A stretch of DNA of 63,271 nucleotides from positions 1-63,271 of the forward strand of contig JAGCFP010000089.1 of the NCBI GenBank assembly GCA_017650045.1, given 5' to 3'. The stretch is from Bacteroidaceae bacterium. Its GTDB lineage: Bacteria > Bacteroidota > Bacteroidia > Bacteroidales > Bacteroidaceae. This document shows positions 2,991 to 56,983 of this stretch, in pieces (the stretch's first letter is position 1; each line of letters begins with the position of its first letter). The notes below the pieces were generated by a model that saw only the letters and a list, made by a program, of their open reading frames with translations, was not told the DNA's origin and searched no databases. Position numbers and translations under genes: made by a program.

Positions 2991-3030
2991 CACGTAAACC
3001 ATAGTTTTGCCGTTTTTCATACCTCACTCT

Positions 3031-3256
3031 CTATTTTACCCTTCACACTTCACAGAAGACGCTTAAACGTCAGATTACCAGAATATAACGAGTGTGAAGT
3101 GTTGCGTTTGACTCTTCACAACACTTCACACTTCTTAGATTATGATTGCCCTGATGTGTGAAGAGTGGTGAAGTGTTAGCAAGCACTCTTCACGCAAGTT
3201 AATGTATGATATATATAGATTAATAGGCTCTCCGTGAAGTGTGAAGGGTAAAATAG
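3031..3256. mobile_element. MITE-like element with perfect 23-base terminal inverted repeats
   Basis: Bases 3031-3053 (beginning CTATTTTACCC) are the exact reverse complement of 3234-3256. Inside are further nested inverted repeats of the same sequence type, notably a 14-base pair at 3091-3104 and 3119-3132 (core AGTGTGAAGTGTTG). There is no open frame that looks genuine and no obvious target-site duplication. Size, terminal repeats and lack of coding are those of a miniature inverted-repeat element. The alternative is a non-mobile palindromic repeat. Confidence 0.6.
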
Positions 3257-3301
3257 TAAGTGGGCTGTAATTTCTATTCTGGATTTCGGGGAATATGGGA
3301 A

Positions 3302-3793
3302 TCAGAGCTTTTGAAACTCACTCTCAAAATTGGGGGTGAAAATACCCTTACCTATATTGGCCCGGATTTCATCAAGCGACCAGAAACGACCACCATCCAG
3401 CTCATCACTGGGATGTATATCTCCATCATAGGTAGTGCGGAATACGAAGACCAACTCACGTTCGATGGCAGACTCGAATACATAGTGCATCAGCGAGGTA
3501 GGGGTATAATTGGTAATGCCCAACTCTTCTTGGACTTCACGTCGCAAAGCCATCTCTACATTTTCTCCTAAATCTACATGCCCTCCACAAGCAGTGTCCC
3601 ACTTTCCTGGCTGTATGTCTTTCCAATCAGGACGCTTTTGCAAGTAGAGCTCGCCTTTGGAATTGTACACATGCAGATGCACTACAGGATGCAACAGTTT
3701 GCTTCCATTGTGGCATTCACCACGCGTGGCACTTCCTATAATGTTGCCCTCTTCGTCGCAGAGAGGGAAAAGCTCGTTTGAATTATCTTTCAT
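3302..3793 (-). CDS. NUDIX hydrolase
   Basis: This 163-residue protein carries a complete NUDIX box: G71, then E77 and REVQEELGI at 85-93, matching GX5EX7REUXEEXGU. The remainder (VVHLHVYNSKGELYLQKR, then PGKWDTACGGHVDLGEN) resembles the YfcD/isopentenyl-diphosphate-isomerase-like branch of small NUDIX enzymes. Such enzymes hydrolyse nucleoside-diphosphate-linked compounds in the cytoplasm. The substrate cannot be read from sequence. It is a single gene whose upstream side holds structured repeat copy A, and no clear TAnnTTTG box was found for it. Confidence 0.88.
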   Translation of the reverse strand: MKDNSNELFPLCDEEGNIIGSATRGECHNGSKLLHPVVHLHVYNSKGELYLQKRPDWKDIQPGKWDTACGGHVDLGENVEMALRREVQEELGITNYTPTSLMHYVFESAIERELVFVFRTTYDGDIHPSDELDGGRFWSLDEIRANIGKGIFTPNFESEFQKL

Positions 3794-3822
3794 AAAATCT
3801 ATTATTAAGTTACTATTCTTTT

Positions 3823-3996
3823 TTCTTTTGCACGATCAAAAGAAAAAGAATCAAAAAGAAAAATCGCCGACAGCATTTTTTCCACTAAAAATCACTCACG
3901 TTTTCCTAAAACGCAAAAACTCGCTTCGCTCTACAGTTTGCGTTTTTATACGGAAAACTTTCCCGATTTTCTTAACGCTCCAAAAATGAGGTCGGA
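3823..3996. repeat. Structured intergenic repeat, copy A
   Basis: This 174-base element opens with CTTTTG...CAAAAG, a small hairpin, then GAATCAAA and CGCCGAC. A long imperfect stem follows: CCGAC (3867-3871) with GTCGG (3991-3995), AAAATC with GATTTT (3965-3970), GTTTTCC (3900-3906) with GGAAAAC (3952-3958), and AAAACGCAAA (3908-3917) with TTTGCGTTTT (3937-3946). The apical loop carries CGCTTCG. Copy B at 6866-7043 has the same blocks and the same pairing plan with different stem sequences. Confidence 0.7.
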
Positions 3997-4022
3997 CAAT
4001 AACGATGTTCAATGCTCAATGC

Positions 4023-5252
4023 TCAGGGAATGAGCAACGAGCTGTCGCCATAACTCAGAAAACGGAAATCGTGACTCAAGGCATAGTCGTAGATGGTATG
4101 CCAATCACCCTTTACAAAGGCTGAAACCAGCAACAGCAAAGTACTTTGAGGCTGATGGAAGTTGGTAATCATCTGCTTTACGATGCGATACTGATAGCCA
4201 GGGGCAATGATGATTTGCGTACTGGTATGCAGCGTTTCCATGCCATGACGATCCAGATATGCAGCTACAGCCTTCAGCGCCTCTACTGAGGAGATTTGTG
4301 CAGCGGATTCTGGCAATTCATAGGGTTGCCACTGTTTCACCTTAAGAGCTTCTTCCTCTTGTTCTGGGTGTAGCAACAGCGCTACGCCAATGTGATAGAG
4401 CGACTCCAAGGTACGTACGGAGGTGGTACCCACAGCGATGGCTTGTCCTCCATGATCTATGAGTTTTTTGAGGGTACTTCGTGCCACAGATATCCATTCC
4501 GTGTGCATCTCATGTCCCTCTATCTCTTCACTCTTCACAGGCTTGAATGTACCAGCTCCTACATGCAGCGTCAATTCTTCCAGTTCCACGCCTTTGTCCT
4601 TCAAGGCATCCAGAACTCTCGTGGTGAAGTGCAGTCCTGCAGTAGGTGCAGCCACAGAGCCTTTAATCTTAGAATACACTGTTTGGTAGGTCACCTTATC
4701 ACTTTCTTGTGTTTCTCTATTTAAATAAGGTGGGATAGGCAATTCGCCAAAAACCTCTAAGATATCAGCAAAGGTCACAGAGGCATCATCCCAACGGAAA
4801 CCTATCCAATGGCTGGTGCCTACCGCCTCTCCACGCTCTGCACTGAGGGTGATGGCATGACCTTTTATCGTCATCTGGCGCTGCAGCACTTCACCCTTCC
4901 ACTTCTTGAGGTTGCCCACCAAGCAAAGCCATGCAGCGTGTTCCGTCTGTTGGAAATTCTGCGCATAGTCGGCTGGTTCGATGGGCTCCAAGCAGAATAC
5001 CTCTATCAACGCTCCTGTAGCCTTGCGGAAGTGCAGGCGGGCCTGAATGACTTTCGTATTATTGAAAACCATCAGTTCTCCTGTCTCTATGTAGTTTGGC
5101 AATGAGGTAAATACATCCTCGGTAACTTCCCCATGCTTGTAGAGCAGCAGTTTGGAATGGTCGCGCTTTGGCAGTGGAAACTTCGCTATACGTTCATCTG
5201 GCAGCGGATAGTTGTAATCGCTGATTTTAATATGTCTTGGATCTTGATTCAT
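4023..5252 (-). CDS. queA: S-adenosylmethionine:tRNA ribosyltransferase-isomerase QueA
   Basis: QueA transfers and rearranges the ribosyl group of S-adenosylmethionine onto 7-aminomethyl-7-deazaguanine in tRNA, making epoxyqueuosine. Family blocks are plain: an N-terminal YPLPDERIAKFPLPKRDHSKLL, then VFNNTKVIQARL, GSVAAPTAGLHFT, LHVGAGTFKPV and HEMHTEW, and a C-terminal ITNFHQPQSTLLLLVSAF. At 409 residues it is longer than the roughly 350 of many QueA proteins, with extra sequence in the middle and near residue 290. Immediately after the stop codon lies a short tandem repeat (TTGAGCA units, 4009-4024). Confidence 0.95.
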   Translation of the reverse strand: MNQDPRHIKISDYNYPLPDERIAKFPLPKRDHSKLLLYKHGEVTEDVFTSLPNYIETGELMVFNNTKVIQARLHFRKATGALIEVFCLEPIEPADYAQNFQQTEHAAWLCLVGNLKKWKGEVLQRQMTIKGHAITLSAERGEAVGTSHWIGFRWDDASVTFADILEVFGELPIPPYLNRETQESDKVTYQTVYSKIKGSVAAPTAGLHFTTRVLDALKDKGVELEELTLHVGAGTFKPVKSEEIEGHEMHTEWISVARSTLKKLIDHGGQAIAVGTTSVRTLESLYHIGVALLLHPEQEEEALKVKQWQPYELPESAAQISSVEALKAVAAYLDRHGMETLHTSTQIIIAPGYQYRIVKQMITNFHQPQSTLLLLVSAFVKGDWHTIYDYALSHDFRFLSYGDSSLLIP

Positions 5253-5266
5253 ATTCTTGTTTACAA

Positions 5267-5291
5267 GAAACGCACCATAAAGGTGCGTTTC
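5267..5291 (-). terminator. Hairpin after the small membrane protein genes
   Basis: GAAACGCACC (5267-5276) and GGTGCGTTTC (5282-5291) form a perfect 10-base stem with a 5-base loop, six bases beyond the stop of the 34-residue gene on the minus strand. The following T-run is weak, so termination is likely but not certain. Confidence 0.5.
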
Positions 5292-5296
5292 ACTTG

Positions 5297-5401
5297 TTAT
5301 TTTTTATTAGCTTTCATTTCTTTCTTCTCCTGAATATAGAAGTAAATGAAGCCAACAATAGCAATGACAGATACCAAAACTGACATAATAATTGCTCCCA
5401 T
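5297..5401 (-). CDS. Small single-helix membrane protein, 34 aa
   Basis: The frame encodes a 34-residue protein beginning MGAIIMSVLVSVIAIVGF, one transmembrane helix followed by a lysine-rich tail (EKKEMKANKK). The start is chosen because AAGGAGG lies at proper distance and because the ATG overlaps the stop of the upstream gene as TAATG, a translational-coupling arrangement. A longer reading frame to 5497 exists but its extra residues overlap the upstream gene out of frame. Small proteins of this look next to DUF6722 genes occur in Bacteroides as I recall. The function is unknown. Confidence 0.65.
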   Translation of the reverse strand: MGAIIMSVLVSVIAIVGFIYFYIQEKKEMKANKK

Positions 5402-5592
5402 TATTTTACCTCCTTTTCTTTTATATCTCGGAGAAACCATAGGCCAAGTCCGAGGGTTAATATTATTGCACAAGATACGATAATATAAACTATCCATCTC
5501 TCTTGTATATCACTAAACACAGATGCCAAAAGTACTGCTGTGACCAGATATTTGGCTACATCCATAAGCCATTTTCCAAACTCGTGTTTCAT
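5401..5592 (-). CDS. DUF6722-type small membrane protein
   Basis: This 63-residue protein begins MKHEFGKWLMDVAKYLVTAV and has two transmembrane helices (about residues 13-26 and 33-53) with a charged C-terminus. It matches the pattern I know for DUF6722 of Bacteroidetes (xxFGKWxxDxAKYxxTAxxLxxxFSDI). Its stop overlaps the start of the 34-residue gene, so the two are expressed together. A TATCTTTG box upstream at 5636-5643 can drive the pair. Function unknown. Confidence 0.75.
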   Translation of the reverse strand: MKHEFGKWLMDVAKYLVTAVLLASVFSDIQERWIVYIIVSCAIILTLGLGLWFLRDIKEKEVK

Positions 5593-5635
5593 TGATGTTT
5601 GTTTTTTACAATTAGTAATTAATGTATATCGACTG

Positions 5636-5643
5636 CAAAGATA
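5636..5643 (-). promoter_or_regulatory. -7 box for the DUF6722 pair
   Basis: CAAAGATA on the plus strand reads TATCTTTG on the minus strand, matching TAnnTTTG, 43 bases upstream of the DUF6722 start. No clear TTTG partner is visible. It is divergent to the box at 5705. Confidence 0.45.
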
Positions 5644-5704
5644 GTGCTTTATTTTTGATTTGAAAAAAAACTAGCATGGTATTTTATATGCGTAAAGTTT
5701 GCAC

Positions 5705-5712
5705 TATCTTTG
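5705..5712 (+). promoter_or_regulatory. -7 box for the DUF2027-Smr gene
   Basis: TATCTTTG lies 23 bases upstream of the ATG at 5736. The -33 position reads ATTT rather than TTTG, so the promoter is partial. Confidence 0.5.
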
Positions 5713-5735
5713 TGGCAAATAACATTAGAATAAAT

Positions 5736-6857
5736 ATGAAGATAGGAGATAAAGTCAGATTTTTGAGCGAAGTTGGTGGTGGCACCATCGTGGGTTTTCA
5801 AGGTAAGGATATTGCATTGGTGGAAGATGCAGATGGCTTTGCTATCCCCATGCAGGTGCGTGATATTGTGGCCATAGAAACGGATGAGTACAACATGCCA
5901 AGTGCTGCAGAGAAACAACGCAGACAAGCAGAACGCGAAGACCAGCTGAAGGCAAAACAGTCGCAACCAGCTGCCCCATACAGGGGGGTAGCAGCTCCTC
6001 AGCAATCCTCCACATCACCAAAGACAGGGGTGCAGAAACCTCAGGAAATCAAGGGTGGTGATGTGCTGAATGTCTATCTGGCTTTCGTGCCTGTGGATAT
6101 GAAGGCCATGAGTACGACCAACTTTGAGACCTATCTGATAAACGATAGTAACTTCTACCTCTATTATACCTATCTTGCTGGTGAGAATGGTTCTTGGAGT
6201 GCCCGCTCTCATGGGGTGCTGGAACCAAACACCAAGTTCTTCATTGAGGAATTCGACAAGGCGAGCTTGAACGACTTACAGCGTGTCTGTGTGCAACTGG
6301 TGGCTTTCAAGGATGGCAAGGCTTTTGCTCTGAAACCTGCGTGCAGCGTGGAATTACGCATCGATGTGGTGAAATTCTATAAGGTGCATACATTCAAGGA
6401 TACCGACTTTTTTGAGGAACCTGCCTTGATTTACGACTTGGTGCGTGATGATGTGCCAGTGCGTCAGATGATGGTTAGTGCTCAGGAGATAGAGCAGGCG
6501 TTGAAGGAGAAAGCGCGTGAAGAAAGTAAGTCGTTCGACCAGAAGCATGTCAAGGTGCGTAAAGGGATCAATTCCGAGATTGTGGAGGTGGACTTGCATG
6601 CTTCCTCATTGCTCGACACGATGGCAGGTATGGATAATGGCGACATCCTGAACTACCAACTTTCCAAGTTCCGTGAGGTGATGGAGCAGTATAAGACGAA
6701 GAAAGGACAGCGCATTGTCTTCATTCATGGAAAGGGTGAGGGGGTGCTTCGAAAAGCGGTGCTTCAAGAACTGCGCCAGAAGTATCCTACATGCAGTCAT
6801 CAAGATGCGTCATTCCAACAATATGGCTTTGGGGCAACGATGGTGATAGTGCATTAA
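5736..6857 (+). CDS. DUF2027 and Smr-domain protein
   Basis: This 373-residue protein starts [16 protein letters not shown] with a small SH3-like KOW-type beta segment, followed by a charged Gln/Pro-rich linker (about residues 65-115), a DUF2027 domain (VYLAFVPVD...[11 protein letters not shown]) and a C-terminal Smr domain. The Smr signatures are [12 protein letters not shown] and [16 protein letters not shown]. Smr domains bind or nick nucleic acid, and this combination is typical of Bacteroidetes. The start at 5736 is preferred over the in-frame ATG at 5676 because the promoter box at 5705 lies between them and homologues begin with MKIGD. Confidence 0.88.
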
Positions 6858-6865
6858 TTATTCAT

Positions 6866-7043
6866 TTCTTTTGCTCGTGCAAAAGAAACGAATCAAAGAA
6901 AACACGCCGACTGCACTTCCACAGCTAAAATAAAGCACTTTTCTCCTAAGCACTGCAAGACGACCGCTTCGCGCTCTTATTGGTGCAGTGCTTTTAACGG
7001 ATAAAAGTCCTTTATTTTTATACGCTGTTCCAGTGATGTCGGA
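6866..7043. repeat. Structured intergenic repeat, copy B
   Basis: This 178-base copy repeats the layout of copy A: a CTTTTG...CAAAAG hairpin, GAATCAAA, CGCCGAC, then paired segments CCGAC (6907-6911) with GTCGG (7038-7042), AAAATAAAG (6927-6935) with CTTTATTTT (7010-7018), ACTTTTCTCC (6937-6946) with GGATAAAAGT (6999-7008, one mismatch), and AAGCACTGCA (6948-6957) with TGCAGTGCTT (6984-6993), and the loop CGCTTCG. It fills the space between the convergent Smr and hemW genes and could serve as a terminator for both. Confidence 0.7.
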
Positions 7044-7044
7044 A

Positions 7045-8178
7045 TTAATCTGAGATTGATAGTAAATCGGAAATGATACTATCTGAGATAAAGAGACCGC
7101 TTTCAGTAAAATGGAGACGGTTCTCTGTTATTAAGAGGCAATTCCTGTCGATGTAAGGTTTGGCCATTTCTAACAGGTAACGAAAGAGTTTTTCGCCAAA
7201 TTGCTGCCTTAGTTTGGTAAGCTCGATGCCTTTAGCAGTGCGAAGCCCTGTCATCACGAACTCATTGTAGCGCGTAGGCAAGTCTAGTATTTCCCGTTCG
7301 AAGACAGGCGTTCCTTCAGCGATGCCTTGAATGTATCTTTCCAAGTCTGCCACATTCCACTGACGGGAAATACCATCGTAGGAGTGTGCTGAGGCTCCGC
7401 ATCCTAAATAAGGGATGTCTTCCCAATAGGAGGAATTATGGCGAGAATGATAGCCTGGCAAACAGAAATTGGATATCTCGTAATGCTCAAAGCCAGCTGA
7501 TTTCAATGTATCCATAAGCATCTTGAAGAAAAGCAGACTTTGTTCCTCTTCAACTTCCTGAATCTGCTGCTTCTCACGAAGTTTCCAGAGGGCAGTACCT
7601 TCTTCATAGGTGAGTGAATAGGCAGAAATATGCTGCACTCCCAAGGCAACTGCTTGTTCCAAATCGTACTGCCATTGAACTTCTGTTTCTCCAGGTAATC
7701 CATAAATCAGATCTATGCTTATATTATGAAATCCTGCATCCTGACAGCGTTTCACGGCACTGATAGCTTCCTCTGCAGTGTGTCTGCGATTCAGCAGTTT
7801 TAGTGAATCATCATTGAAAGTCTGAATGCCAATGCTGAGACGATTGACGGGAAGAGTGGCGAGCATCTTTACATAGTGTTCTGTCAGGTCGTCAGGATTA
7901 GCCTCTATGGTGATTTCCTCACAAGTCCCTAAACCATACACTTTTCCAATTTCGCTAAAAAGCTTTTCCAATTCTGTCCGTTGAAGCAGTGAAGGGGTTC
8001 CACCTCCCAGATAAATGGTCTTAACTGCTTCCCCCTTCAGATATTCCTTCCGTTGCCTCAGTTCTCGACACAAAACACCCACATACGCCCCACGATATTT
8101 CAAGAGCGTGGAAGAGTAGAAATTGCAATAGATACAGCGTTTCTTGCAGAAGGGGATATGTAGGTAAATGCCTGCCAT
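7045..8178 (-). CDS. hemW: Radical SAM protein HemW
   Basis: The N-terminus MAGIYLHIPFCKKRCIYC contains the CxxxCxxC cluster motif (Cys11, 15, 18), preceded by the HIPFC sequence of the HemW/HemN class. YLGGGTPSLL is the SAM-binding GGGTP motif, and SIGIQTFND and RRHTAEEA are also family blocks. The length of 377 residues and the absence of the longer HemN N-terminus point to HemW, a heme chaperone, rather than to coproporphyrinogen dehydrogenase HemN. It is followed upstream by the DUF6266 gene 7 bases away, so the two probably share a transcript. Confidence 0.92.
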   Translation of the reverse strand: MAGIYLHIPFCKKRCIYCNFYSSTLLKYRGAYVGVLCRELRQRKEYLKGEAVKTIYLGGGTPSLLQRTELEKLFSEIGKVYGLGTCEEITIEANPDDLTEHYVKMLATLPVNRLSIGIQTFNDDSLKLLNRRHTAEEAISAVKRCQDAGFHNISIDLIYGLPGETEVQWQYDLEQAVALGVQHISAYSLTYEEGTALWKLREKQQIQEVEEEQSLLFFKMLMDTLKSAGFEHYEISNFCLPGYHSRHNSSYWEDIPYLGCGASAHSYDGISRQWNVADLERYIQGIAEGTPVFEREILDLPTRYNEFVMTGLRTAKGIELTKLRQQFGEKLFRYLLEMAKPYIDRNCLLITENRLHFTESGLFISDSIISDLLSISD

Positions 8179-46856: not shown

Positions 46857-47536
46857 TCAAATTTAAATAAGCGCACTTCCGACCCACTGGCATACTTTGT
46901 AAGCAACGTGGCAGTAAAGTCCGCAGCCTCTTGCAACCCCTCTTCACCACTGTAACCGTTGATCACAGCCAATATGTGCGTCGTTTCCAGCGTCATCTTC
47001 GTACGCTCATGGTCGCTGGTGGGCGTACCTACACCTCCGATGGCATCCCTATATACAGGCAGTCCTTCAATGTTTAACATCCCACGGCCTATGCCTTCAT
47101 AGGGTTCCTCTGCTTTTCCCACGCCTAATATCAGCACGTTCCCTTGGAACTTGTCCGCATCGAAACCTCCAATGGAATAGCCCGACTTCATCGATACCAG
47201 GTTAATGATATCCACCAATGTATCTATCTGATAAAGTTTCAGTCCTCTCAATACCCTGCGACAAAGCGCCTCTCCTGATGGACGGTAGCGGCTGGGATCT
47301 TTTCCACAACGGCGATAAGCTTCGCGTGTCGCAGCGATGGAAGGCAGCAACTTAATGTCATCTACAGTATAATGTGCTTTCAGCTCCTCAGAATAGGCAT
47401 CTATCTCCTGCCACAATCCTTCGCAGTAAGGTGTGTTTACCACCTTAGCCTCCACAGCAATACCCTTGAAGGCAGGACAATAATGCTTGAATTCTTCAGA
47501 AACCTTTATGTTCAATTCACAATTCACAATTTTCAA
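46853..47536 (-). CDS. B3/4 domain protein (PheT-like fold)
   Basis: This protein of up to 227 residues has the B3/4 fold of phenylalanyl-tRNA synthetase beta: SEEFKHYCPAFKGIAVEAKV, YRRCGKDPSRYRPSGEALCRR, LVDIINLVSMKSGYSIGGFD. Stand-alone B3/4 proteins may edit misacylated tRNAs. The gene has no ATG near its start. The candidates are TTG at 47536, GTG at 47527 and TTG at 47515, all inside a heptamer repeat. The last gives MNIKVSEEF, the most natural N-terminus. Coordinates give the longest frame. Confidence 0.82.
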   Translation of the reverse strand: MKIVNCELNIKVSEEFKHYCPAFKGIAVEAKVVNTPYCEGLWQEIDAYSEELKAHYTVDDIKLLPSIAATREAYRRCGKDPSRYRPSGEALCRRVLRGLKLYQIDTLVDIINLVSMKSGYSIGGFDADKFQGNVLILGVGKAEEPYEGIGRGMLNIEGLPVYRDAIGGVGTPTSDHERTKMTLETTHILAVINGYSGEEGLQEAADFTATLLTKYASGSEVRLFKFE

Positions 47537-47647
47537 TTACAACTTCGTTGTGATTATTAGCTGTACCTCGGCAAATTAAAGCAAGCTTTATTGCTCTCGG
47601 TTTGCATAATAATACTCAATTTTCAATTTTCAATTCTCAATTCTCAA
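47510..47647. repeat. Heptamer repeat tracts flanking an intergenic hairpin
   Basis: On the minus strand TTGAAAA/TTGAGAA units run four and a half times (47615-47647) at the end of pgeF, and TTGAAAA/TTGTGAA units run about four times (47510-47537) at the start of the B3/4 gene. Between them lies a palindromic stretch around AAGCAAGCTTTATT (47580-47593), flanked by CTCGGCAAA and CTCGGTTTGC. This sort of TTGARAA tract is common in Bacteroidales intergenic DNA. Confidence 0.65.
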
Positions 47648-48448
47648 CATGATCCCCGTCAGCGCCCTTCCAGACTCTTGTCCCATGCGTCGCGCAGAGA
47701 AATAATCCTGATAGCGCAGATAAGTACAGATACCAGCCAGCTCTATCTGATTGTCAGGAATGCCGAACTCCTTGAACTGCATACGGTTAGCTATCCACAG
47801 GTTGATGTGGTACTTATGGCTGTTGCGCTTCCATTCCGAGATGCGTTCCATAGGGAAACCATGATTGGCAAACTCCAGATACACTTCATCACCCACTTCC
47901 AGTCCTGCCAGAGAAATACCAGGTCCCATACAGGCAATGACATCCTTACCCTCAGTGCCATAAAGCTCATGCATCTTCTCCAGCGTTTGCTTGGCGATGC
48001 GCTTCACTGTGCCCCTCCATCCGGCATGCGAACTGGCGATTACCCCATGCGTCTTGTCATAGAACAACAATGGAATACAATCGGCAGTCGTCACACACAG
48101 ACAGACGCCTTTTTCCGTAGTGATCAGGGCATCCTTACCATCCACCATCTGCAGGCGCTCCTCTTCACTGGCATTAAGATACTCCTCGCCAATGACGGCT
48201 ATCTCCGTGTTATGTACCTGATGGGGGATTACCAGCAGTGCTGGTCGTTCTGGAAGTGCACTGCAGAGCTTTTCCAGATTCTGTTTGATACATTCAGGGT
48301 CGTCATTCCCATAAATACCTAAATTGAATGAAGAATAACTACCCTTACTTACGCCACCGTGACGAGTGGTGGTAAAATTACAAAGCTCTGGGTGTGCTGA
48401 AAGCAGCTTAAACGCCTGTACGCTATTATCTTCAGTTAGTGCTATCAT
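47630..48448 (-). CDS. pgeF: Peptidoglycan editing factor PgeF (YfiH/DUF152 family)
   Basis: This 272-residue protein has the multicopper-oxidase-like YfiH block: TTRHGGVSKGSYSSFNLG, CVTTADCIPLLFYDK with the metal Cys, and ASSHAGWRGTVKRIA with the metal His. PgeF removes wrongly inserted L-serine from peptidoglycan precursors; older annotations call it laccase or polyphenol oxidase. The last five residues (LRIEN) and the stop are encoded by the TTGAGAA heptamer tract, so the 3' end has been modified by the repeat. Confidence 0.9.
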   Translation of the reverse strand: MIALTEDNSVQAFKLLSAHPELCNFTTTRHGGVSKGSYSSFNLGIYGNDDPECIKQNLEKLCSALPERPALLVIPHQVHNTEIAVIGEEYLNASEEERLQMVDGKDALITTEKGVCLCVTTADCIPLLFYDKTHGVIASSHAGWRGTVKRIAKQTLEKMHELYGTEGKDVIACMGPGISLAGLEVGDEVYLEFANHGFPMERISEWKRNSHKYHINLWIANRMQFKEFGIPDNQIELAGICTYLRYQDYFSARRMGQESGRALTGIMLRIEN

Positions 48449-50213: not shown

Positions 50214-51962
50214 ATGAAAAGCCTTTCTACCACCCTCTGTGTGATATGCTGCATGATGCTTTCCACCATGCTCGCTTTGACTGCGTGCCATCGTCATATC
50301 AGTTATCCCAAGGAGCTGAAGGTCGCAGATAGTCTGGCGAATGTGAATCCAGAGGAGGCCATTACCCTGCTTCAAGGACAGGCGCATGCCATGACGTCTG
50401 CTCCACTTGCCACACAGATGTATTACCGCTTGCTTTGCATCAAGGCCAATGACAAGGCCTATATCCCTCATACCACAGACACACTGATACTTCCTGTGCT
50501 GCATTATTATGAGAAAGGAGGTGACCCTTCGTTGCTGAGTATGGCCTATTACTATGCCGGACGAGTTTACCGTGATTTGAATGATGCTCCACAGGCTTTG
50601 GATTATTTCCAAAAAGGCTTGCAGGCACAGGTCGATGGCGATGACTCTATGGGGGCTGTGCTCTATGCCCAGATGGGTGAGATCTTCTTTTACCAGTCGC
50701 TATATGAAGAGGCGCAGAATATGTATCAGGAAGCATACAGGCTTGACTCCATCGCTGCAGATACCATTGGTATGATCTTTGATTTGCGCGACATGGCTTT
50801 CACCTATCGCATGCAGTCGCAGTATGACGAGGCACTACCTTTGTTGCTACAAGCAGAAACAATGGCACAAGCCATCGATGACGAGGAGATGGTGGGACTT
50901 GTAGCATCGCAGTTGGCAGGACTCTATAACCGCATTGGACAATATGAGCAGGCTTTGGAGCAAATCTCGCTAGCCTTAGAGCATGTGGGCGCAGTGGATC
51001 TTCAGAGTACATACGATGTCTATGCCAATATCCTGCTGAATACAGGAAAGTTGGCGGAAGCTGAAGGCCTTTTCGAGCAGCTGACGCATGCAGACGATCA
51101 GAATATTCGCCTCGATGCCTATGATGGTTTAGCCACGATAGCTGCCAACAGGAAGCAGGTAGAGGATTATTCCCATTATTTCCGTCAGTATAAGGCCGTC
51201 AACGATTCCATTCAGCGTGTGGCAGCCACAACGTCCGTCAGTAGGATGAATGCCCTCTATAATTACCAACTCAGGGAAAGAGAGAATGCTGAACTCAGGG
51301 AGAAAAACCAGCAGAATCAGATCCTGTTGATATCGTTACTCTCCGTGTTCTTGTTGGTTGCTGTGGCCTCATGGACCTACTTCCGTCATCGTCGCATGCA
51401 GATGCAGTATCGTTTGGAACAGTTGCAGCGCTTACAGGCAGAACAATATCGCCAGAGTGATGAGTTTATCAAATCCAACCAGCGTGAGATTCTGAAACTT
51501 CAGGCTCAGCTTGAGGAAAGCAGTCTTCAGAATAAGGAAATGGCCCAACGATTAGAGGCACAGAAAGAGCAGTTAGAACGCTCCAACCGCTTGGCAGAGA
51601 TGAAGATAGAGCAGCGCGAGCAGATCAAGAAAGCCATCCAAGAATCCTCAGTGATGGCACATCTGCAAGAACTTGTGGCCAGTGGCCAGCATATCCATCC
51701 AGAAGACATCACTGAAGTCTTGAACCTGCTCCATGATATATGCCCAGATTTCTTGTCTGCCTTAGATCAATTGGGCGAACTCAATGAACTGGAATACCAG
51801 GTAAGTCTGCTGTTGAAACTCGGTATCTCTCCCGCCTCTATTTCCCAGTTGGTACTTCGTGAAAAGACCACCATCTCTGCTGTTCGTAGGCGATTATATA
51901 AGAAAATCACAGGGCAGAATGGTACCCCAAGTGATTGGGATGAGATTATCCTTTCGCTGTAA
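50214..51962 (+). CDS. Membrane-anchored TPR regulator with C-terminal HTH
   Basis: This 582-residue protein has a signal ending in the lipobox LTAC (Cys25), about eight TPR-like repeats over residues 40-350 (YYAGRVYRDLNDAPQALDYFQKGL is one), a membrane helix near 367-389, a long coiled coil (about 395-475) and a C-terminal helix-turn-helix: ELEYQVSLLLKLGISPASIS, with TTISAVRRRLYKKITG as the recognition part. It is paralogous to the protein at 200-1906. The layout suggests a signal sensed in the periplasm and passed to DNA. It faces the DUF4249/TonB genes tail to tail with no base between the stops. Those genes and the palindrome-linked lipoproteins are candidate targets. Confidence 0.8.
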   Translation: MKSLSTTLCVICCMMLSTMLALTACHRHISYPKELKVADSLANVNPEEAITLLQGQAHAMTSAPLATQMYYRLLCIKANDKAYIPHTTDTLILPVLHYYEKGGDPSLLSMAYYYAGRVYRDLNDAPQALDYFQKGLQAQVDGDDSMGAVLYAQMGEIFFYQSLYEEAQNMYQEAYRLDSIAADTIGMIFDLRDMAFTYRMQSQYDEALPLLLQAETMAQAIDDEEMVGLVASQLAGLYNRIGQYEQALEQISLALEHVGAVDLQSTYDVYANILLNTGKLAEAEGLFEQLTHADDQNIRLDAYDGLATIAANRKQVEDYSHYFRQYKAVNDSIQRVAATTSVSRMNALYNYQLRERENAELREKNQQNQILLISLLSVFLLVAVASWTYFRHRRMQMQYRLEQLQRLQAEQYRQSDEFIKSNQREILKLQAQLEESSLQNKEMAQRLEAQKEQLERSNRLAEMKIEQREQIKKAIQESSVMAHLQELVASGQHIHPEDITEVLNLLHDICPDFLSALDQLGELNELEYQVSLLLKLGISPASISQLVLREKTTISAVRRRLYKKITGQNGTPSDWDEIILSL

Positions 51963-53102
51963 TCAGTCCCCATATTCCACAAAATGCCTGTCATAGCTTA
52001 GGGCTCCAAGGATGCCCCAGCCATTCTGAACGTTGCTGTAGATTTGTACGGGTTCCGAGAAGGCATCTTTCTCAGACACCTGATAGATCTGTACTGACTT
52101 TAGGTAGAGGTAAAGTTCCTTAGAGATGGCCTGTAGCTCTACCATTACTTCTGGGTCGCGCCACAAAGCCTCGATTATCTCCTCATCTGTCGTACCATTT
52201 GGAACCATGGGACTGTCAACTGTGAACGTATAATCCCTGCCCTGCATCAGTGAGTTATCGAATACATTGGAGAAGAAGGCAGGCCAACCTCCAAAGTTAG
52301 CCGTGATACGGCTGTCCAAAAACAGTTCGTCGGTTGAGAAGTATACATCCTGCATGGTGTAGTAATAATATGCAGTTGAGGACCATCCGTCACCCTCCCA
52401 AGTCTGGGAACTTTTATTGTATCTCACACCCCTCACACGTAGGCGATAGTATTTTTCTCCAGCGGTGTCTGTGATACGGCACGTCAAGCGCATCACGGTA
52501 TCAGTTTCGAAACTAAGGTTTCCCTGATACCTGTACGGATTCTCTGGCACCCGTTCATGGCTTACTATCTCTATCTTTGGTTTGGCAGGCACGGTGGTCT
52601 CGGCATAAGCTATTTGAGGAGGGGAGACCTTTTCCGAAATAACCTTTCCCGAAGAAGCATCAAAGTCCACAACACCTCCCCCCATGGGCCTTGTTATGGC
52701 AGCCACCTCTATATGGTCGCCTGCCTTGGGCACATAGTCGCTTGTGTAGCATTTCGAATCATCGTTCCAAAACATTGTGAAACTCTGGCCGTTTACTTTT
52801 ACTTCCACATTTGCCGAAGCAATGAGGTTTTTTCTATAGTAGTCGTTCTGCTGATAGTCCAGCGTGTTGTCGTTCTTCACGAACTTTTGTTCCTTGTAGT
52901 CATAGTAGGCCACACCGGGGGTCTTGTTGATGGGATAGGCATGACTTAGATACACCTTTAGCGGTGTGCCCTCTACGGCTATGGCATCTATGGTCATGTC
53001 GTTGGCCTGCTCTTCCTGTGTGTTCACAAAGTCGAGGGTACGTTCACAGGCACTGCCCATCAGTGCCAAGATGCAAAGTATGATGTAATGTTTTGCTTTC
53101 AT
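51963..53102 (-). CDS. DUF4249 lipoprotein, copy 1
   Basis: This 379-residue lipoprotein has the lipobox GSAC (Cys19) and a DUF4249 body with Ig-like strands (AIAVEGTPLKVYLSHAYPINKTPGV; VRGVRYNKSSQTWEG). Its C-terminal segment (YSNVQNGWGILGALSYDRHF) is nearly the same as in the copy at 55848. DUF4249 proteins stand beside TonB-dependent receptors in Bacteroidetes and probably serve as their outer-membrane partner. Start 53102 is chosen over 53156 because the latter overlaps the receptor gene and lacks a signal. It follows the receptor by 5 bases. Confidence 0.85.
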   Translation of the reverse strand: MKAKHYIILCILALMGSACERTLDFVNTQEEQANDMTIDAIAVEGTPLKVYLSHAYPINKTPGVAYYDYKEQKFVKNDNTLDYQQNDYYRKNLIASANVEVKVNGQSFTMFWNDDSKCYTSDYVPKAGDHIEVAAITRPMGGGVVDFDASSGKVISEKVSPPQIAYAETTVPAKPKIEIVSHERVPENPYRYQGNLSFETDTVMRLTCRITDTAGEKYYRLRVRGVRYNKSSQTWEGDGWSSTAYYYYTMQDVYFSTDELFLDSRITANFGGWPAFFSNVFDNSLMQGRDYTFTVDSPMVPNGTTDEEIIEALWRDPEVMVELQAISKELYLYLKSVQIYQVSEKDAFSEPVQIYSNVQNGWGILGALSYDRHFVEYGD

Positions 53103-53107
53103 ATCTT

Positions 53108-55741
53108 TCAGAGTTTTAAAGTCAGACTTAATGAGGGCATGATGGGGAACATGCATACGCCTTTCAGTACGCGGCGGTTTTTCTCGTAGCCCCAGTAAAC
53201 GGTAGAGATATTCTGCTGGTTGTAGAGGTTATAGATACCAATATCGCAGATCATCTCTCCTATGCCGATGCTGCCGTGATGCGTCAGGCTGATGTCCAGG
53301 CGGTGAACGGCGGGCATCACGTAGCTGTTGCGCTGCCCGTAGGTGTTGGTGCGCACCAGGTGCTGCACGTAGGTATTTTCGTAGTAGCCCGATGTGGAAC
53401 TATTGTAGGCGGGATTCAGTTCATAGTCCATAGTCTGGTTGTCGCTCTCAGGTCTGTAGTTATTGAACTCATCAGGTATGGGACTGATGATGGTAGTAGA
53501 TGCAAAGGAAGCCCTGCGCCCACTCTGGTAGGTCCATGCCGCAGAGAAGTCCCAGTTCTTGCTCAGTCGCTGTGTGATGCTGATGTTGAAGTTGTGCCTG
53601 CGGTCGCCAGGGGCGTAGAATTCATGCCCAGCATTCAGCTCCATGCCAGGACGGTTGAAGGTACGTAGCGACTTGCTCCATGTGTAGCTCACTTGCCCCG
53701 TAGTGTTTCCTGTAGTCTTCTGTGCCAATAGTTCCACGCCGTAAGCCTTGCCCTCGCCTTGTGCAATCATCTTCTCCCAGTGTGTTTCATTGAAGAACGT
53801 GCTTCCTTCCCTGTAGTCCACCACACCGTCCAGCCACTTGTAGTAGCCCTCCACAGAGAACTGCAGCCCATTCCGCAGTTCGTGGTTCAGGCCTACGGAG
53901 AGCTGGTCAGACATGCCTAAGTCCATCTCCTTGCTCAGAGGTATCCAGATATCTGACGGGCTGGTGAGGCTTCCACTGCTCAGCAGGAAGATGCCCTGTG
54001 ACATGCGGGCATACGAGGCCTTCAGCGATAAGCCCTTTGCCAGCATGGCTCGCAACGACACACGTGGTTCCAAAGCCAGGCGACTCTTGCCATCAGTACT
54101 GTAGCCTTGCAGGCGCAGGCCTAAGTTGGCCCTGAGGAATTCGCCAAGTTTCCAGTCATCCTCAGCGTAGGCTGCATAGGTCTTCAGGCTCCGCTTGTCA
54201 GCGAGAAGGTTATGACGCTCCATTTCCGTGATCTTATAACGGTCGTCGCCCAGTCCCACGTTCCACACGATGTCCAAGCTGTGGGCCGTTTTTTGATAGT
54301 TCTTATAGTATGCCTCCACCTCTGGTGAAAGCTCCATAGAGCCTACCTGCACGCCTGCATGCACCTCGTGACGGTCTTGCTGACGGTAGGTCAGTTCCAG
54401 CTTGGCTCCTAAATCGTTTACCTTCGAGCGGTAAGTGGTGCTGTTCTCCACATCAGTGCGCGAATAGAGTTCTGCGCCTTCAGGTCCGTGCCCCCACTGG
54501 TCAAACCCCAACTTGTTATACATGTCGTTGATGTAGCCTAACTCATAGTCGTAGCCGCTGTAGCTCACCCTTGCATCCAGGTGTAGGGCATTACTGAACT
54601 CATGGGTATAGGTCAGTCCTCCAAGCAAGTTGTTCCAGTGGTTGGTAGTACGACTAGAATTTATGTTATCCACGATGTTTCCTTGATAGACGTCGTAAAT
54701 ATTTTTAGTAAGATAATATTCAAAGTGCTGTACACTCTCCTGCGGAGTAGCGTTGTTCACATCGTGCCCCAGATAGAAAACGCCTGTCAGCTTGTCCTTT
54801 TCCGTGAAACGGTGTACTAACTTGGCGTTCATGTCATAGTAACGCATGTGGCTATAGGCATTCATCTGCCCGGGGTTGTCGTATATCACCTCTTCCAGCA
54901 TCGGTTTCACGATGGCTCCGAAATACGACATGCGGGCAGCTATATTATAGGAGGTGTGCCCTTTCCAGATAGGCCCTTCGGCTTGCAGGCGCGAAGCCAA
55001 CATGCCCGCAGTGACAGATAGGCGGTGACGCTCCGCATCGCCCTCCTGCAAGCTGATGTCCACGATGCTTGACAGTCGGCTGCCGAATCGTGCGGGAAAG
55101 GCTCCCTTGTAGAGCACCACATCGTCCACTACGTCGGCATTGATGGCCGAGGTGAAGCCCTGCAGGTGCTCAGGGTTGTAGAGCGTGATGCCGTCTATGG
55201 CAAACAGATTCTGGTCCTGCTCACCACCACGAACGTATATGCCAGCCCGTCCCTCACCGCTGCTCTGCACGCCTGGCAGGCGTTGGAGCGACTTCAGCAC
55301 ATCCGCCTCGCCAAGCAGCACGGGCATCTTCCTGATCTGCTCCGCGCTCACGGCTATGGCGCTCATCTGAGAGCTCTGTACGCCAAAGTTGTGGCGCGTG
55401 CCATAGACCTGCACCTCGCCGAGGCTCTGCGTGTCCTGCCTGAGCTGGATGTCCAACTGCTGGTTTTGCGTCAGCGTGAGGTTTCTGGTCTCGCTGACAT
55501 AGCCCACGTAGCTGAACACTATCTCCAGCGCTCGATTACTGGGTAGAGTCAGGGTGTACTGACCAGAAGCATTGGTTGTGGTACCTGTACGTCGCTGTGT
55601 ATGATACACGGTCACGCCCGCTAATGGCTCTCCCGATGTGGCATCAGTTACCTGTCCGCTAAGTACCACGTTCTGGGCACTGAGAGAAAAGCATAATAAG
55701 CTGAACAATGCTGTAATATAGCTGCGTCTTAGCATTTTCAT
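53108..55741 (-). CDS. TonB-dependent receptor with N-terminal carboxypeptidase-like domain, copy 1
   Basis: This 877-residue outer-membrane transporter has a signal peptide (ending SLSAQ, about residue 22), a CarboxypepD-like regulatory domain (VVLSGQVTDATSGEPLAGVTV, about 24-105), a plug domain (MSAIAVSAEQIRKMPVLLGE, IYVRGGEQDQN, LQGFTSAINADVVDDVVLYKG) and a beta barrel ending SLTLKL. The ligand is unknown. There is no TonB box I can be sure of. It is paired with the DUF4249 gene 5 bases downstream, has its own promoter, and is about half identical to the receptor at 56984, by eye. Confidence 0.92.
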   Translation of the reverse strand: MKMLRRSYITALFSLLCFSLSAQNVVLSGQVTDATSGEPLAGVTVYHTQRRTGTTTNASGQYTLTLPSNRALEIVFSYVGYVSETRNLTLTQNQQLDIQLRQDTQSLGEVQVYGTRHNFGVQSSQMSAIAVSAEQIRKMPVLLGEADVLKSLQRLPGVQSSGEGRAGIYVRGGEQDQNLFAIDGITLYNPEHLQGFTSAINADVVDDVVLYKGAFPARFGSRLSSIVDISLQEGDAERHRLSVTAGMLASRLQAEGPIWKGHTSYNIAARMSYFGAIVKPMLEEVIYDNPGQMNAYSHMRYYDMNAKLVHRFTEKDKLTGVFYLGHDVNNATPQESVQHFEYYLTKNIYDVYQGNIVDNINSSRTTNHWNNLLGGLTYTHEFSNALHLDARVSYSGYDYELGYINDMYNKLGFDQWGHGPEGAELYSRTDVENSTTYRSKVNDLGAKLELTYRQQDRHEVHAGVQVGSMELSPEVEAYYKNYQKTAHSLDIVWNVGLGDDRYKITEMERHNLLADKRSLKTYAAYAEDDWKLGEFLRANLGLRLQGYSTDGKSRLALEPRVSLRAMLAKGLSLKASYARMSQGIFLLSSGSLTSPSDIWIPLSKEMDLGMSDQLSVGLNHELRNGLQFSVEGYYKWLDGVVDYREGSTFFNETHWEKMIAQGEGKAYGVELLAQKTTGNTTGQVSYTWSKSLRTFNRPGMELNAGHEFYAPGDRRHNFNISITQRLSKNWDFSAAWTYQSGRRASFASTTIISPIPDEFNNYRPESDNQTMDYELNPAYNSSTSGYYENTYVQHLVRTNTYGQRNSYVMPAVHRLDISLTHHGSIGIGEMICDIGIYNLYNQQNISTVYWGYEKNRRVLKGVCMFPIMPSLSLTLKL

Positions 55742-55777
55742 ATCGATTATATAAAAGATTTTTAGTTACTTCTTTTG

Positions 55778-55811
55778 CAAATATAAAGTTTCTTTTTCAA
55801 TTAAATGCAAA
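55778..55811 (-). promoter_or_regulatory. Promoter of receptor/DUF4249 pair 1
   Basis: Plus-strand CAAATATA (55778-55785) reads TATATTTG on the minus strand. CAAA at 55808-55811 would be its TTTG, 22 bases away. The start codon lies 36 bases downstream. Confidence 0.55.
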
Positions 55812-55847
55812 AATCCTGAAACCTTGCATGCATTAACATAATAAAAA

Positions 55848-56978
55848 TTATTCCCCATATTCCACAAAATGCCTGTCATAGCTTAGTGCACCAAGGATGC
55901 CCCAACCATTCTGCACGTTGCTGTAGATCTGTACAGGCTCCGAGAAGGCATCAGTTTCTGTGTTACGATATAACTCTATAGATTTCAAGTAGTGGTAGAA
56001 TTCTGGCGAGATAGCTTGTAGCTCTACCATCACCTGACTAGGTAACTCGGGCACTTCTGATGCCTTATGTAAATATCTTGTCCAATAATACTCCTGATCA
56101 CTCTTCGAATAATAGGAATACCAATGGGCATTTGGTTTTGGACTATCGATGGTGAACGTATGCTGAGAACCTTTGAACAAAGTGTTATCGAAAACATTGC
56201 TGAAAAAAGCAGGCCATCCTCCGAATCCATTCGTCAGTCGATTGTCCACAAAGAGTTCATCCTCAGAGAAATAAACATCTTGCATTAGATAATGCACATA
56301 ATCGCCTATCTCATTATAATGGGTATAACCATCCAGTCCCTTTTCCACCCCTCTGATTCTGAGTCGATAGTATTGTCCGCTGCCTGTATCACTGATACGG
56401 CAAGTGAGGCGCATAATAGTGTCTGTGGTATAGGTCAGTTCATTCATGTTACGGTAGGGATTTTCGTCCAGTACCTCATGACGAGTGATTTCTATTCGTG
56501 GCTTGGCAGGAACGGTTGTTTCTGCACTTACCACTCTGGAACCTATTACTTTGTCGTCCCAACTTAGCTCCTTGTAAACTGCTGTAATCTCTATGTGGTC
56601 ATTTACTTGAGGTGCATAATTGCTGACATAAGAAATGCTGGCACTATCAAGTGCCAATGTATAAGTTTGCTGTCCGTTCACTTCGGCTGTTACTTCTGCA
56701 TCAAAAACTGCTGTTTTCTTATAGTAGTCCCAAGTCTGATAGTCTGTGATGAGATTGTTTTTCGCGAAAATGGCATCTGTCCCTATGTAAGTCAGAGGCG
56801 TTTTCCCTATGGGGTACGAACGGTTTAGATACACCCTTAATGGCGTACCTTCCACAGCTACAGCATTGATGACCAGATTATTTTCAGCCTCTACTGAGGG
56901 ACTTTCAAATTCGACCTCCTTCTCACATGCTGTAAATACCAGCAGTGAAGACAGGAAAAATAGTATCTTTGCTTTCAT
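55848..56978 (-). CDS. DUF4249 lipoprotein, copy 2
   Basis: This 376-residue lipoprotein has the lipobox FTAC (Cys18) followed by EKEVEFE, acidic as in surface-exported lipoproteins. The body (INAVAVEGTPLRVYLNRSYPIGKTPLTY; LRIRGVEKGLDG) parallels copy 1, and the last 26 residues are nearly identical. The nucleotide sequences at the 3' ends are also very close (51963-52080 and 55848-55960), suggesting recent duplication or gene conversion. It is 5 bases after its receptor gene. Confidence 0.85.
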   Translation of the reverse strand: MKAKILFFLSSLLVFTACEKEVEFESPSVEAENNLVINAVAVEGTPLRVYLNRSYPIGKTPLTYIGTDAIFAKNNLITDYQTWDYYKKTAVFDAEVTAEVNGQQTYTLALDSASISYVSNYAPQVNDHIEITAVYKELSWDDKVIGSRVVSAETTVPAKPRIEITRHEVLDENPYRNMNELTYTTDTIMRLTCRISDTGSGQYYRLRIRGVEKGLDGYTHYNEIGDYVHYLMQDVYFSEDELFVDNRLTNGFGGWPAFFSNVFDNTLFKGSQHTFTIDSPKPNAHWYSYYSKSDQEYYWTRYLHKASEVPELPSQVMVELQAISPEFYHYLKSIELYRNTETDAFSEPVQIYSNVQNGWGILGALSYDRHFVEYGE

Positions 56979-56983
56979 AATCG

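Follow-up and report, generated by a model that had tools for sequence, protein, structure and literature searches.

We describe a family of structured intergenic repeats represented by two copies, A at 3815..3996 and B at 6860..7043 (both on the + strand), in a 63,271-nucleotide stretch of a Bacteroidaceae bacterium (contig JAGCFP010000089.1, the whole stretch being called the window here). On balance, A and B probably belong to a family, spread across Bacteroidota, of non-autonomous elements that move within chromosomes. The fold and distribution of the family are well supported and were unexpected; any mechanism is tentative. Units share one anatomy, occur as singles, inverted pairs and gene-unit arrays, and largely retain their pairing while their sequence changes; relatives lack copy A in the corresponding gene neighbourhood. 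An enzyme supplied in trans would recognise the folded single-stranded end, pairs would be the usual mobile form, and singles would be remnants or one-ended insertions; as the working molecule, folded DNA would have somewhat better chances than RNA, which would follow close behind. The finding would add a large family of interspersed structured repeats of gut and marine Bacteroidota, unrecognised by Rfam in the loci scanned, whose fold (pseudoknot plus tiered hairpin) and history of insertion can both be put to the test.

From 5′ to 3′ a unit consists of an outer hairpin, an A-rich linker, a loop-complementary segment and a long tiered hairpin; the outer-hairpin loop pairs with the segment preceding the long hairpin, forming a pseudoknot. 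Copy A, a complete single unit without a partner, scored 165.5 bits at 3817-3996 with a covariance model (A is in the training set), and BLASTN against its own genome gave a further copy on a different contig (E 8.8e-45). Its outer hairpin, ATTCTTTTTTCTTTTG/CAAAAGAAAAAGAAT, folds at 3815..3851, CGAT in the loop (3833..3836) is complementary to ATCG downstream (3863..3866), and the long hairpin (3866..3995) has the tiers GCCGAC..GTCGG, GCATTTTT/AAAAATG, AAAATC/GATTTT, GTTTTCC/GGAAAAC and AAAACGCAAA/TTTGCGTTTT, with CTCGCTTCGCTC at the apex. Copy B, likewise a complete single unit (177.1 bits, with B in the training set), lies between the stop of an Smr-type gene, 2 bp before it, and that of a hemN-like gene, 1 bp beyond it (names by eye). 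Its outer hairpin, ATTCATTTCTTTTGC/GCAAAAGAAACGAAT, folds at 6860..6893; CGTG in the loop (6876..6879), whose final base doubles as the hairpin closing base, is complementary to CACG (6903..6906), and the long hairpin (6906..7042) has stem sequences of its own, AAGCACTGCA/TGCAGTGCTT and ACTTTTCTCC/GGATAAAAGT, and an ACAGC/GCTGT tier. All these parts are on the + strand. Hairpins were placed by folding, the long hairpin of A also by pair counts on 14 copies, and the pseudoknot sides by complementarity and the loop test described below. Both copies had better fold energies than 200/200 dinucleotide shuffles each (z -4.1 for A, -6.6 for B).

The initial annotation had described A and B as repeats that share sequence blocks while their stems differ yet stay paired, the stems it quoted are present, and every block it named lies where it was placed: in A, CTTTTG..CAAAAG (3825-3842), GAATCAAA (3848-3855), CGCCGAC (3865-3871), CGCTTCG (within 3920-3931) and GTCGGA (3991-3996), and in B the same series at 6868-6885, 6890-6898, 6905-6911, 6965-6971 and 7038-7043. 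Both repeats are real; their starts lie 6-8 bases further outward, and the pseudoknot, the second and third tiers of A and the paired copies elsewhere in the genome had been overlooked.

The long hairpin is closed by CCGAC/GTCGG in the own genome and by GGC..GCC in what we call Bacteroides-type units, and near its foot lies a nearly constant mismatched step, CTGCA against TGAGG, from which A and B are each one base off. On the opposite strand, the sequence of the apical loop is often C-GNA-G (by eye), a very stable DNA mini-hairpin motif. Pseudoknot pairs differ among units: two other own-genome copies have GCAG/CTGC, and Bacteroides-type units have CTTGAT/ATCAAG, CTTGAC/GTCAAG or CTTGAA/TTCAAG. 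A unit's own loop gave a longer helix than the loops of other units did on average in 22 of 23 own-genome units, 51 of 51 Bacteroides-type units and 40 of 44 other units (unit L171, from which no hairpin was obtained, was left out). Among 27 Bacteroides-type units, five of the six pseudoknot pairs are invariant and one varies on both sides (C-G in 11, T-A in 11, A-T in 5).

Compensating changes, claimed initially from A and B, recur in further copies. Scored over 14 own-genome copies, the 36 pairs of the long hairpin (504 cells) include 71 cells changed on both sides, none changed on one side only and 17 unpaired; 96.6% of cells are paired, against 82.6% after shuffling and 34-53% with the partner slid, the structure having been taken from the very alignment scored, which favours paired cells. 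The covariation score is 0.377 against 0.132 shuffled, and 0/500 shuffles reach it. One pair is U-G in 12 of the 14 copies. For the outer hairpin, pseudoknot and foot of the 27 Bacteroides-type units (20 pairs, 540 cells), the counts are 36 two-sided, 0 one-sided and 9 unpaired. As a control we used the thiamine pyrophosphate (TPP) riboswitch (23 of 28 loci from 25 genomes, scored with the general structure of the family), with 30 two-sided and 11 one-sided changes. Changed cells that are still paired are thus one-sided in 0/107 cases in the repeats and 11/41 in the control, and wobble types number 0/30 against 4/13 (Fisher p 0.006); the control contrasts genomes and not copies inside one genome. 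Larger within-genome sets (shared core stems; clusters under four units omitted) gave one-sided events of 24 A-C, 9 G-T and 41 other mismatches, against 31 two-sided. The initial annotation had named two outcomes that would refute it, a lack of copies in related genomes or uncompensated decay of the stems. Neither occurred as such, although one-sided mismatches are seen within genomes.

Whole tiers reassort among copies with both arms matched, and three of six tier pairs each provide one set of four combinations. Since tiers are exchanged as blocks, two-sided cells are not independent, and their counts overstate how many separate compensations took place. This reassortment, with the lack of one-sided intermediates in the aligned copies, is what would be expected if nested exchange and hairpin-templated repair, in which one arm serves as template for the other, maintained the pairing with no functional selection. 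Such repair would not obviously yield the pseudoknot, whose sides are not arms of one hairpin and yet change together at one pair, nor the end and linker motifs conserved across the phylum, and we rank this the least likely of the explanations weighed here.

A lesser but serious possibility is that the unit acts as an RNA within untranslated regions (an mRNA 3′ stabiliser, processing site or insulator), spread by usefulness or by gene conversion, in which a pseudoknot near the stop codon would protect or punctuate transcripts. The covariation in aligned copies would fit, as would the stop codons close to unit 5′ ends: among units whose nearest gene edge on that side is a stop, the stop falls between an overlap of 30 bp and a distance of 12 bp for 5/8 units in genome G297, 11/27 of Bacteroides type, 4/12 in the own genome and 7/27 others, though 0/9 in G016. 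The + strand excess of A-C over G-T events (p 0.014) would correspond to G-U on the - strand. The opposite strand does fold more stably, but shuffles show a similar difference (slightly more than shuffled in Bacteroides-type units, p 0.04, and less in G016), and strand assignment from folding energy was dropped for that reason. Also counting against a functional RNA are the missing G-U intermediates of the aligned copies, in contrast to the TPP control, the presence of units in every gene orientation, some just before start codons, and Rfam, of which no family reaches its gathering score in the window. In ten other loci, the sole Rfam match over gathering was a trp leader outside the units; the nearest miss over a unit was an insect-flavivirus element (40.2 of 41 bits, L096:3149-3254, - strand), a similarity between long hairpins that we put down to chance. 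The RNA option of the initial annotation is weakened by the aligned copies and kept alive by the one-sided wobbles of the larger sets.

The covariance model was built from 14 own-genome copies, including A and B, all of which are among the 23 full-length units it found, so the scores of these 14 are partly circular. A search of this kind, proposed in the initial annotation, gave 43 matches at E <=1 in the 2.27 Mb own-genome assembly: 23 full-length units (>=122 bits) and 4 truncated at contig ends, the matches short of full length being contig-end cuts, the opposite strand of the outer hairpin, or weak. With the own genome included, 24 of 61 related genomes carry the family by model R1 (E <=0.01) and 49 of 198 genomes of the order by model R2 (E <=1e-5, stricter filters). 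An exact 18-mer, not carried by the own genome's subtype, occurred in 6/395 genomes of the phylum, against 0/395 for its backward control. The exact 41-nt core of the Bacteroides-type end was found in 11 stretches. Bacteroides luti has six of these, and the other five come singly from a Bacteroidia metagenome-assembled genome, two Flavobacteriaceae assemblies, Winogradskyella flava and Tamlana fucoidanivorans. In these five non-luti loci and three loci of genome G163 the ends are conserved and the inner stems different, and most have another conserved hairpin block before the unit. The family spans several classes of one phylum. Plasmid and phage records gave no match to the one Bacteroides-type composite tried. 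Viral origin was rejected, as 17 viral contigs with the exact 18-mer have no surrounding hairpin and no unit by model; a second pattern, of own-genome type, had 0 matches in viral contigs. The family is seemingly chromosomal.

The own genome has seven inverted pairs whose 3′ ends face each other across spacers of 18-141 bp (in two pairs a contig end cuts one unit), and an additional facing pair whose 924-bp gap holds a 255-aa frame (L096:3310-4077) with no Pfam or PADLOC match; its remaining units are single. Gene orientation at 16 sites, a count that omits two pairs at contig ends, is co-directional in 8, convergent in 5, divergent in 2 and unclassed in 1, and some units lie directly upstream of start codons. 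Pairs fill gaps beside trpB/trpE, trpD and trpF/trpA (names by eye from frames). At L098 and L099 (contigs C75 and C88) composites split the trp genes at two junctions and contig-end units lie at a third; a Bacteroid-trp leader (RF01692) is at L099:3853-3991, upstream of the unit-bearing trp genes. Spacers between paired units (e.g. L100 4203-4318) contain a second small hairpin repeat, GCAACATCGCTTCGCTCGTTGC, with the recurrent motif GGCTGCGC. The suggestion that A and B are terminator-like elements was not supported: 3700-7200 has 3 terminator-like sites (one inside B), about the 2.6 expected by chance, and the genes around units may be convergent, co-directional or divergent, with some units placed among trp genes.

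In G016, seven pairs form composites of 415-459 bp whose outer flanks are partly conserved. Flanks like AAATGATAATTTATCTTTG and AAATGGGAATTTATATG tend to stand at opposite composite ends (L108-L126), whatever the unit type inside, and AAATGATAATTTATCTTTG resembles the Bacteroides -7 box, TAnnTTTG. In G003, G025 and B. luti, units are clustered in regions of ~60-90 kb.

Evidence of insertion comes from comparison with relatives. The queA-NUDIX gap with copy A (3794..4022, no strand assigned) is 232 bp long, counting the queA stop codon; without the unit ~50 bp are left, which is similar to the unit-free gaps in relatives. Among 29 relative queA loci, 18 have a NUDIX neighbour, 17 of them on the same strand, and the gap in these 17 is 13-66 bp in 14 and 144, 754 and 796 bp in the others. 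No unit was found by the covariance model in 58 relative loci from the queA and copy-B gene searches. Because the gap here so exceeds that of 14 of the 17 relatives, copy A is most simply read as an insertion. The comparison yielded no empty site for copy B: the Smr-hemN neighbourhood was found only here and in G020, whose gap of ~776 bp holds no unit, in loci extending 1.5 kb per side. A B. luti composite with AbiEii and DUF6922 genes is absent at the same place in G025, as is ~100 bp to its left, and B. luti has an apparent additional segment, an ATPase-like frame plus a unit, relative to G025. The initial suggestion of a hairpin-mobilised DNA element is close to our best reading.

In some relatives, units separate rows of genes of toxin-antitoxin or defence type, and so may act somewhat like integron cassette sites. 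In G297, six similar same-orientation units bound five gene intervals: ATPase_2/DUF234; Fic; HTH_3 + Gp49; ATPase_2/DUF234; and AAA_14/DUF4143 + HigB + HTH_3, with genes running along the units in intervals 1-4 and against them in interval 5. Between the two ATPase_2 intervals identity is 98.96% over 1723 bp, a match that starts 11-28 bp past the preceding unit and runs to the next (the query was cut at unit ends), and 3 of the 6 units lie 4 bp after a stop codon. Four family-scanned B. luti intervals contain AbiEii + DUF6922, a DUF7017 protein (PADLOC candidate PDC-M16B), Abi_2/AbiD and Fic, and in G017 the genes after three same-orientation units encode an AbiL-like ATPase, RloB/AbiLii plus an ATPase, and AbiD. 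These open reading frames were picked for adjoining units in variable regions. Genes flanking units on the outside encode, among others, ATPases of the AAA_14/DUF4143 and DUF234 kinds and HU-HIG, Amidase_2, VapE and RhuM proteins.

The array, the cargo and the extra B. luti segment would suit a recombination site of integron-like cassettes, gene plus unit being moved by a recombinase that reads the folded strand. We consider this unlikely: attC R boxes (RYYYAAC/GTTRRRY) are present in 0/150 units (0.1 in shuffles), only 6 of 28 facing-unit intervals (five of the six in B. luti) have an open reading frame of >=90 aa, and homologous recombination between repeats would duplicate cassettes too. 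An integron integrase as mobiliser was rejected, being over cut-off in 1 of 12 element-bearing genomes (G279), a set outside which the array genome G297 falls. The repeat-carrying genome G279 has its integrase match at C75:16115-17053 (L212; 463 bits). A fuller version is a shade less likely again: the repeats would form a second gene-cassette system of Bacteroidota, with the pseudoknotted tiered repeat in place of attC marking the 3′ edge of toxin-antitoxin and defence cassettes, a recombinase acting on one folded strand as reader, and core-operon pairs and singles as escaped or empty sites. If the arrays were such a system, it would explain the shuffling of toxin-antitoxin and abortive-infection genes in Bacteroides-like variable regions that have no recognised integron integrase.

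Two other candidate mobilisers were rejected. Of 24 unit-bearing genomes, only G011, G012, G040, G042 and G048 (5 in all) have a Y1 transposase (RAYT/IS200) over cut-off, and the own genome has one match, below cut-off. Group II intron maturase (GIIM) was found in 6 of 12 genomes and is absent from G000, G013, G016, G017, G028 and G279. In G163, group II intron ORFs (open reading frames; L197 8150-8579 and L198 560-1013), accompanied by domain V-like sequence (by eye), lie ~370 bp before two of the three units examined, and the neighbourhood is a mosaic of several hairpin blocks.

Several points weigh against a folded non-autonomous element. No fitting mobilising enzyme was found among Y1 transposases, group II maturases and integron integrases. 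No target-site duplication was detected in 27 composites, in which own and mismatched flanks had strings of equal length in common (2-3 bp would escape). The empty sites are between-species comparisons and could partly reflect losses. Stem arms do decay, as the one-sided mismatches of the within-genome sets demonstrate, and the A-C excess would, weakly, also fit an opposite-strand RNA. An H-type pseudoknot with an A-rich linker is a fold familiar mainly from RNA. In the loop test, G016, which has few loop types, had the longer helix with its own loop in only 14 of 25 units, and in the own genome at least 12 of the 23 units have one common loop, with a helix of ~4 bp.

The window has other repeats as well. 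A different inverted-repeat family, CTTCACACTTCAC with TATTTTACCC, occurs at 1-26, 3025-3056 and 3231-3262, adjoining the present finding; AT-rich short repeats, AATTCACAATTCACAATTTTCAATT, lie at 47514-47649, and diverged long direct duplications, ~3.9 kb apart with 72-80% identity, at 51961-59243.

The open-licence literature searched gave, in the parts available, no description of the family, and the portions seen of PMC2864571, PMC7366714, PMC12306157 and PMC2267715 have none. A deletion primer in the part seen of PMC12548429 contains outer-hairpin sequence, beside BT1222. Flavo-1 RNA (RF01705) has one weak overlap with an outer hairpin (L099:2159-2209), at 20 bits against a gathering score of 42, which was not recovered in a second scan of six loci. 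Integron attC sites are folded, with conserved ends and a variable inner hairpin. The repeats likewise have conserved ends and a variable inner hairpin, and in the G297 toxin-antitoxin array, though not in the own genome, they form a same-orientation series of gene plus folded site; they differ in lacking attC boxes, in an integrase below cut-off in 11 of 12 genomes and in having inverted pairs and singles as their commonest forms. RU repeats of enterobacteria are reportedly MITE-like (miniature inverted-repeat transposable elements), structured and intergenic. Pneumococcal BOX and RUP are modular structured intergenic repeats, proposed to be parasitic and non-autonomous, that make target duplications, according to the part seen of PMC3049150. 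Our repeats are modular, structured, intergenic and of MITE size like BOX, RUP and RU, from which they differ in exchanging tiers inside one hairpin and in occurring across several classes of a phylum; they are set apart from BOX and RUP also by the undetected target duplication, on descriptions and not on sequences. With MITEs of DDE transposases the composites share outer ends that are inverted copies (of the unit), which the single copies A and B lack, and differ in the target-site duplication; in the intervals examined, no full-length relative with a transposase was seen by eye or Pfam, in a search that was not exhaustive. CGTC-tagged palindromes, described for five phyla including Bacteroidetes, are interspersed without a dedicated transposase, as our repeats are, but are short and tagged (PMC3733652, in part). 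The GTAG/CGTC tag is present in 0/124 anchored units, scored on the 5′ side of the long hairpin (26 of 150 units had no anchor and are not in this count). The repeats also resemble REP, BIME and REPIN elements (repetitive extragenic palindromes and their composites), which are intergenic hairpins in many copies, with two inverse units and a variable linker, and whose TnpA-REP reads a folded single strand (PMC8266576, in the part seen). Our units are ~180 nt against 20-50 for REP, have a pseudoknotted outer hairpin and no GTAG/CGTC tag, and a cognate Y1 transposase is not general in the genomes that bear them. The repeat fails defining tests of each of these families, yet it behaves like a non-autonomous folded element of the REPIN or MITE sort.

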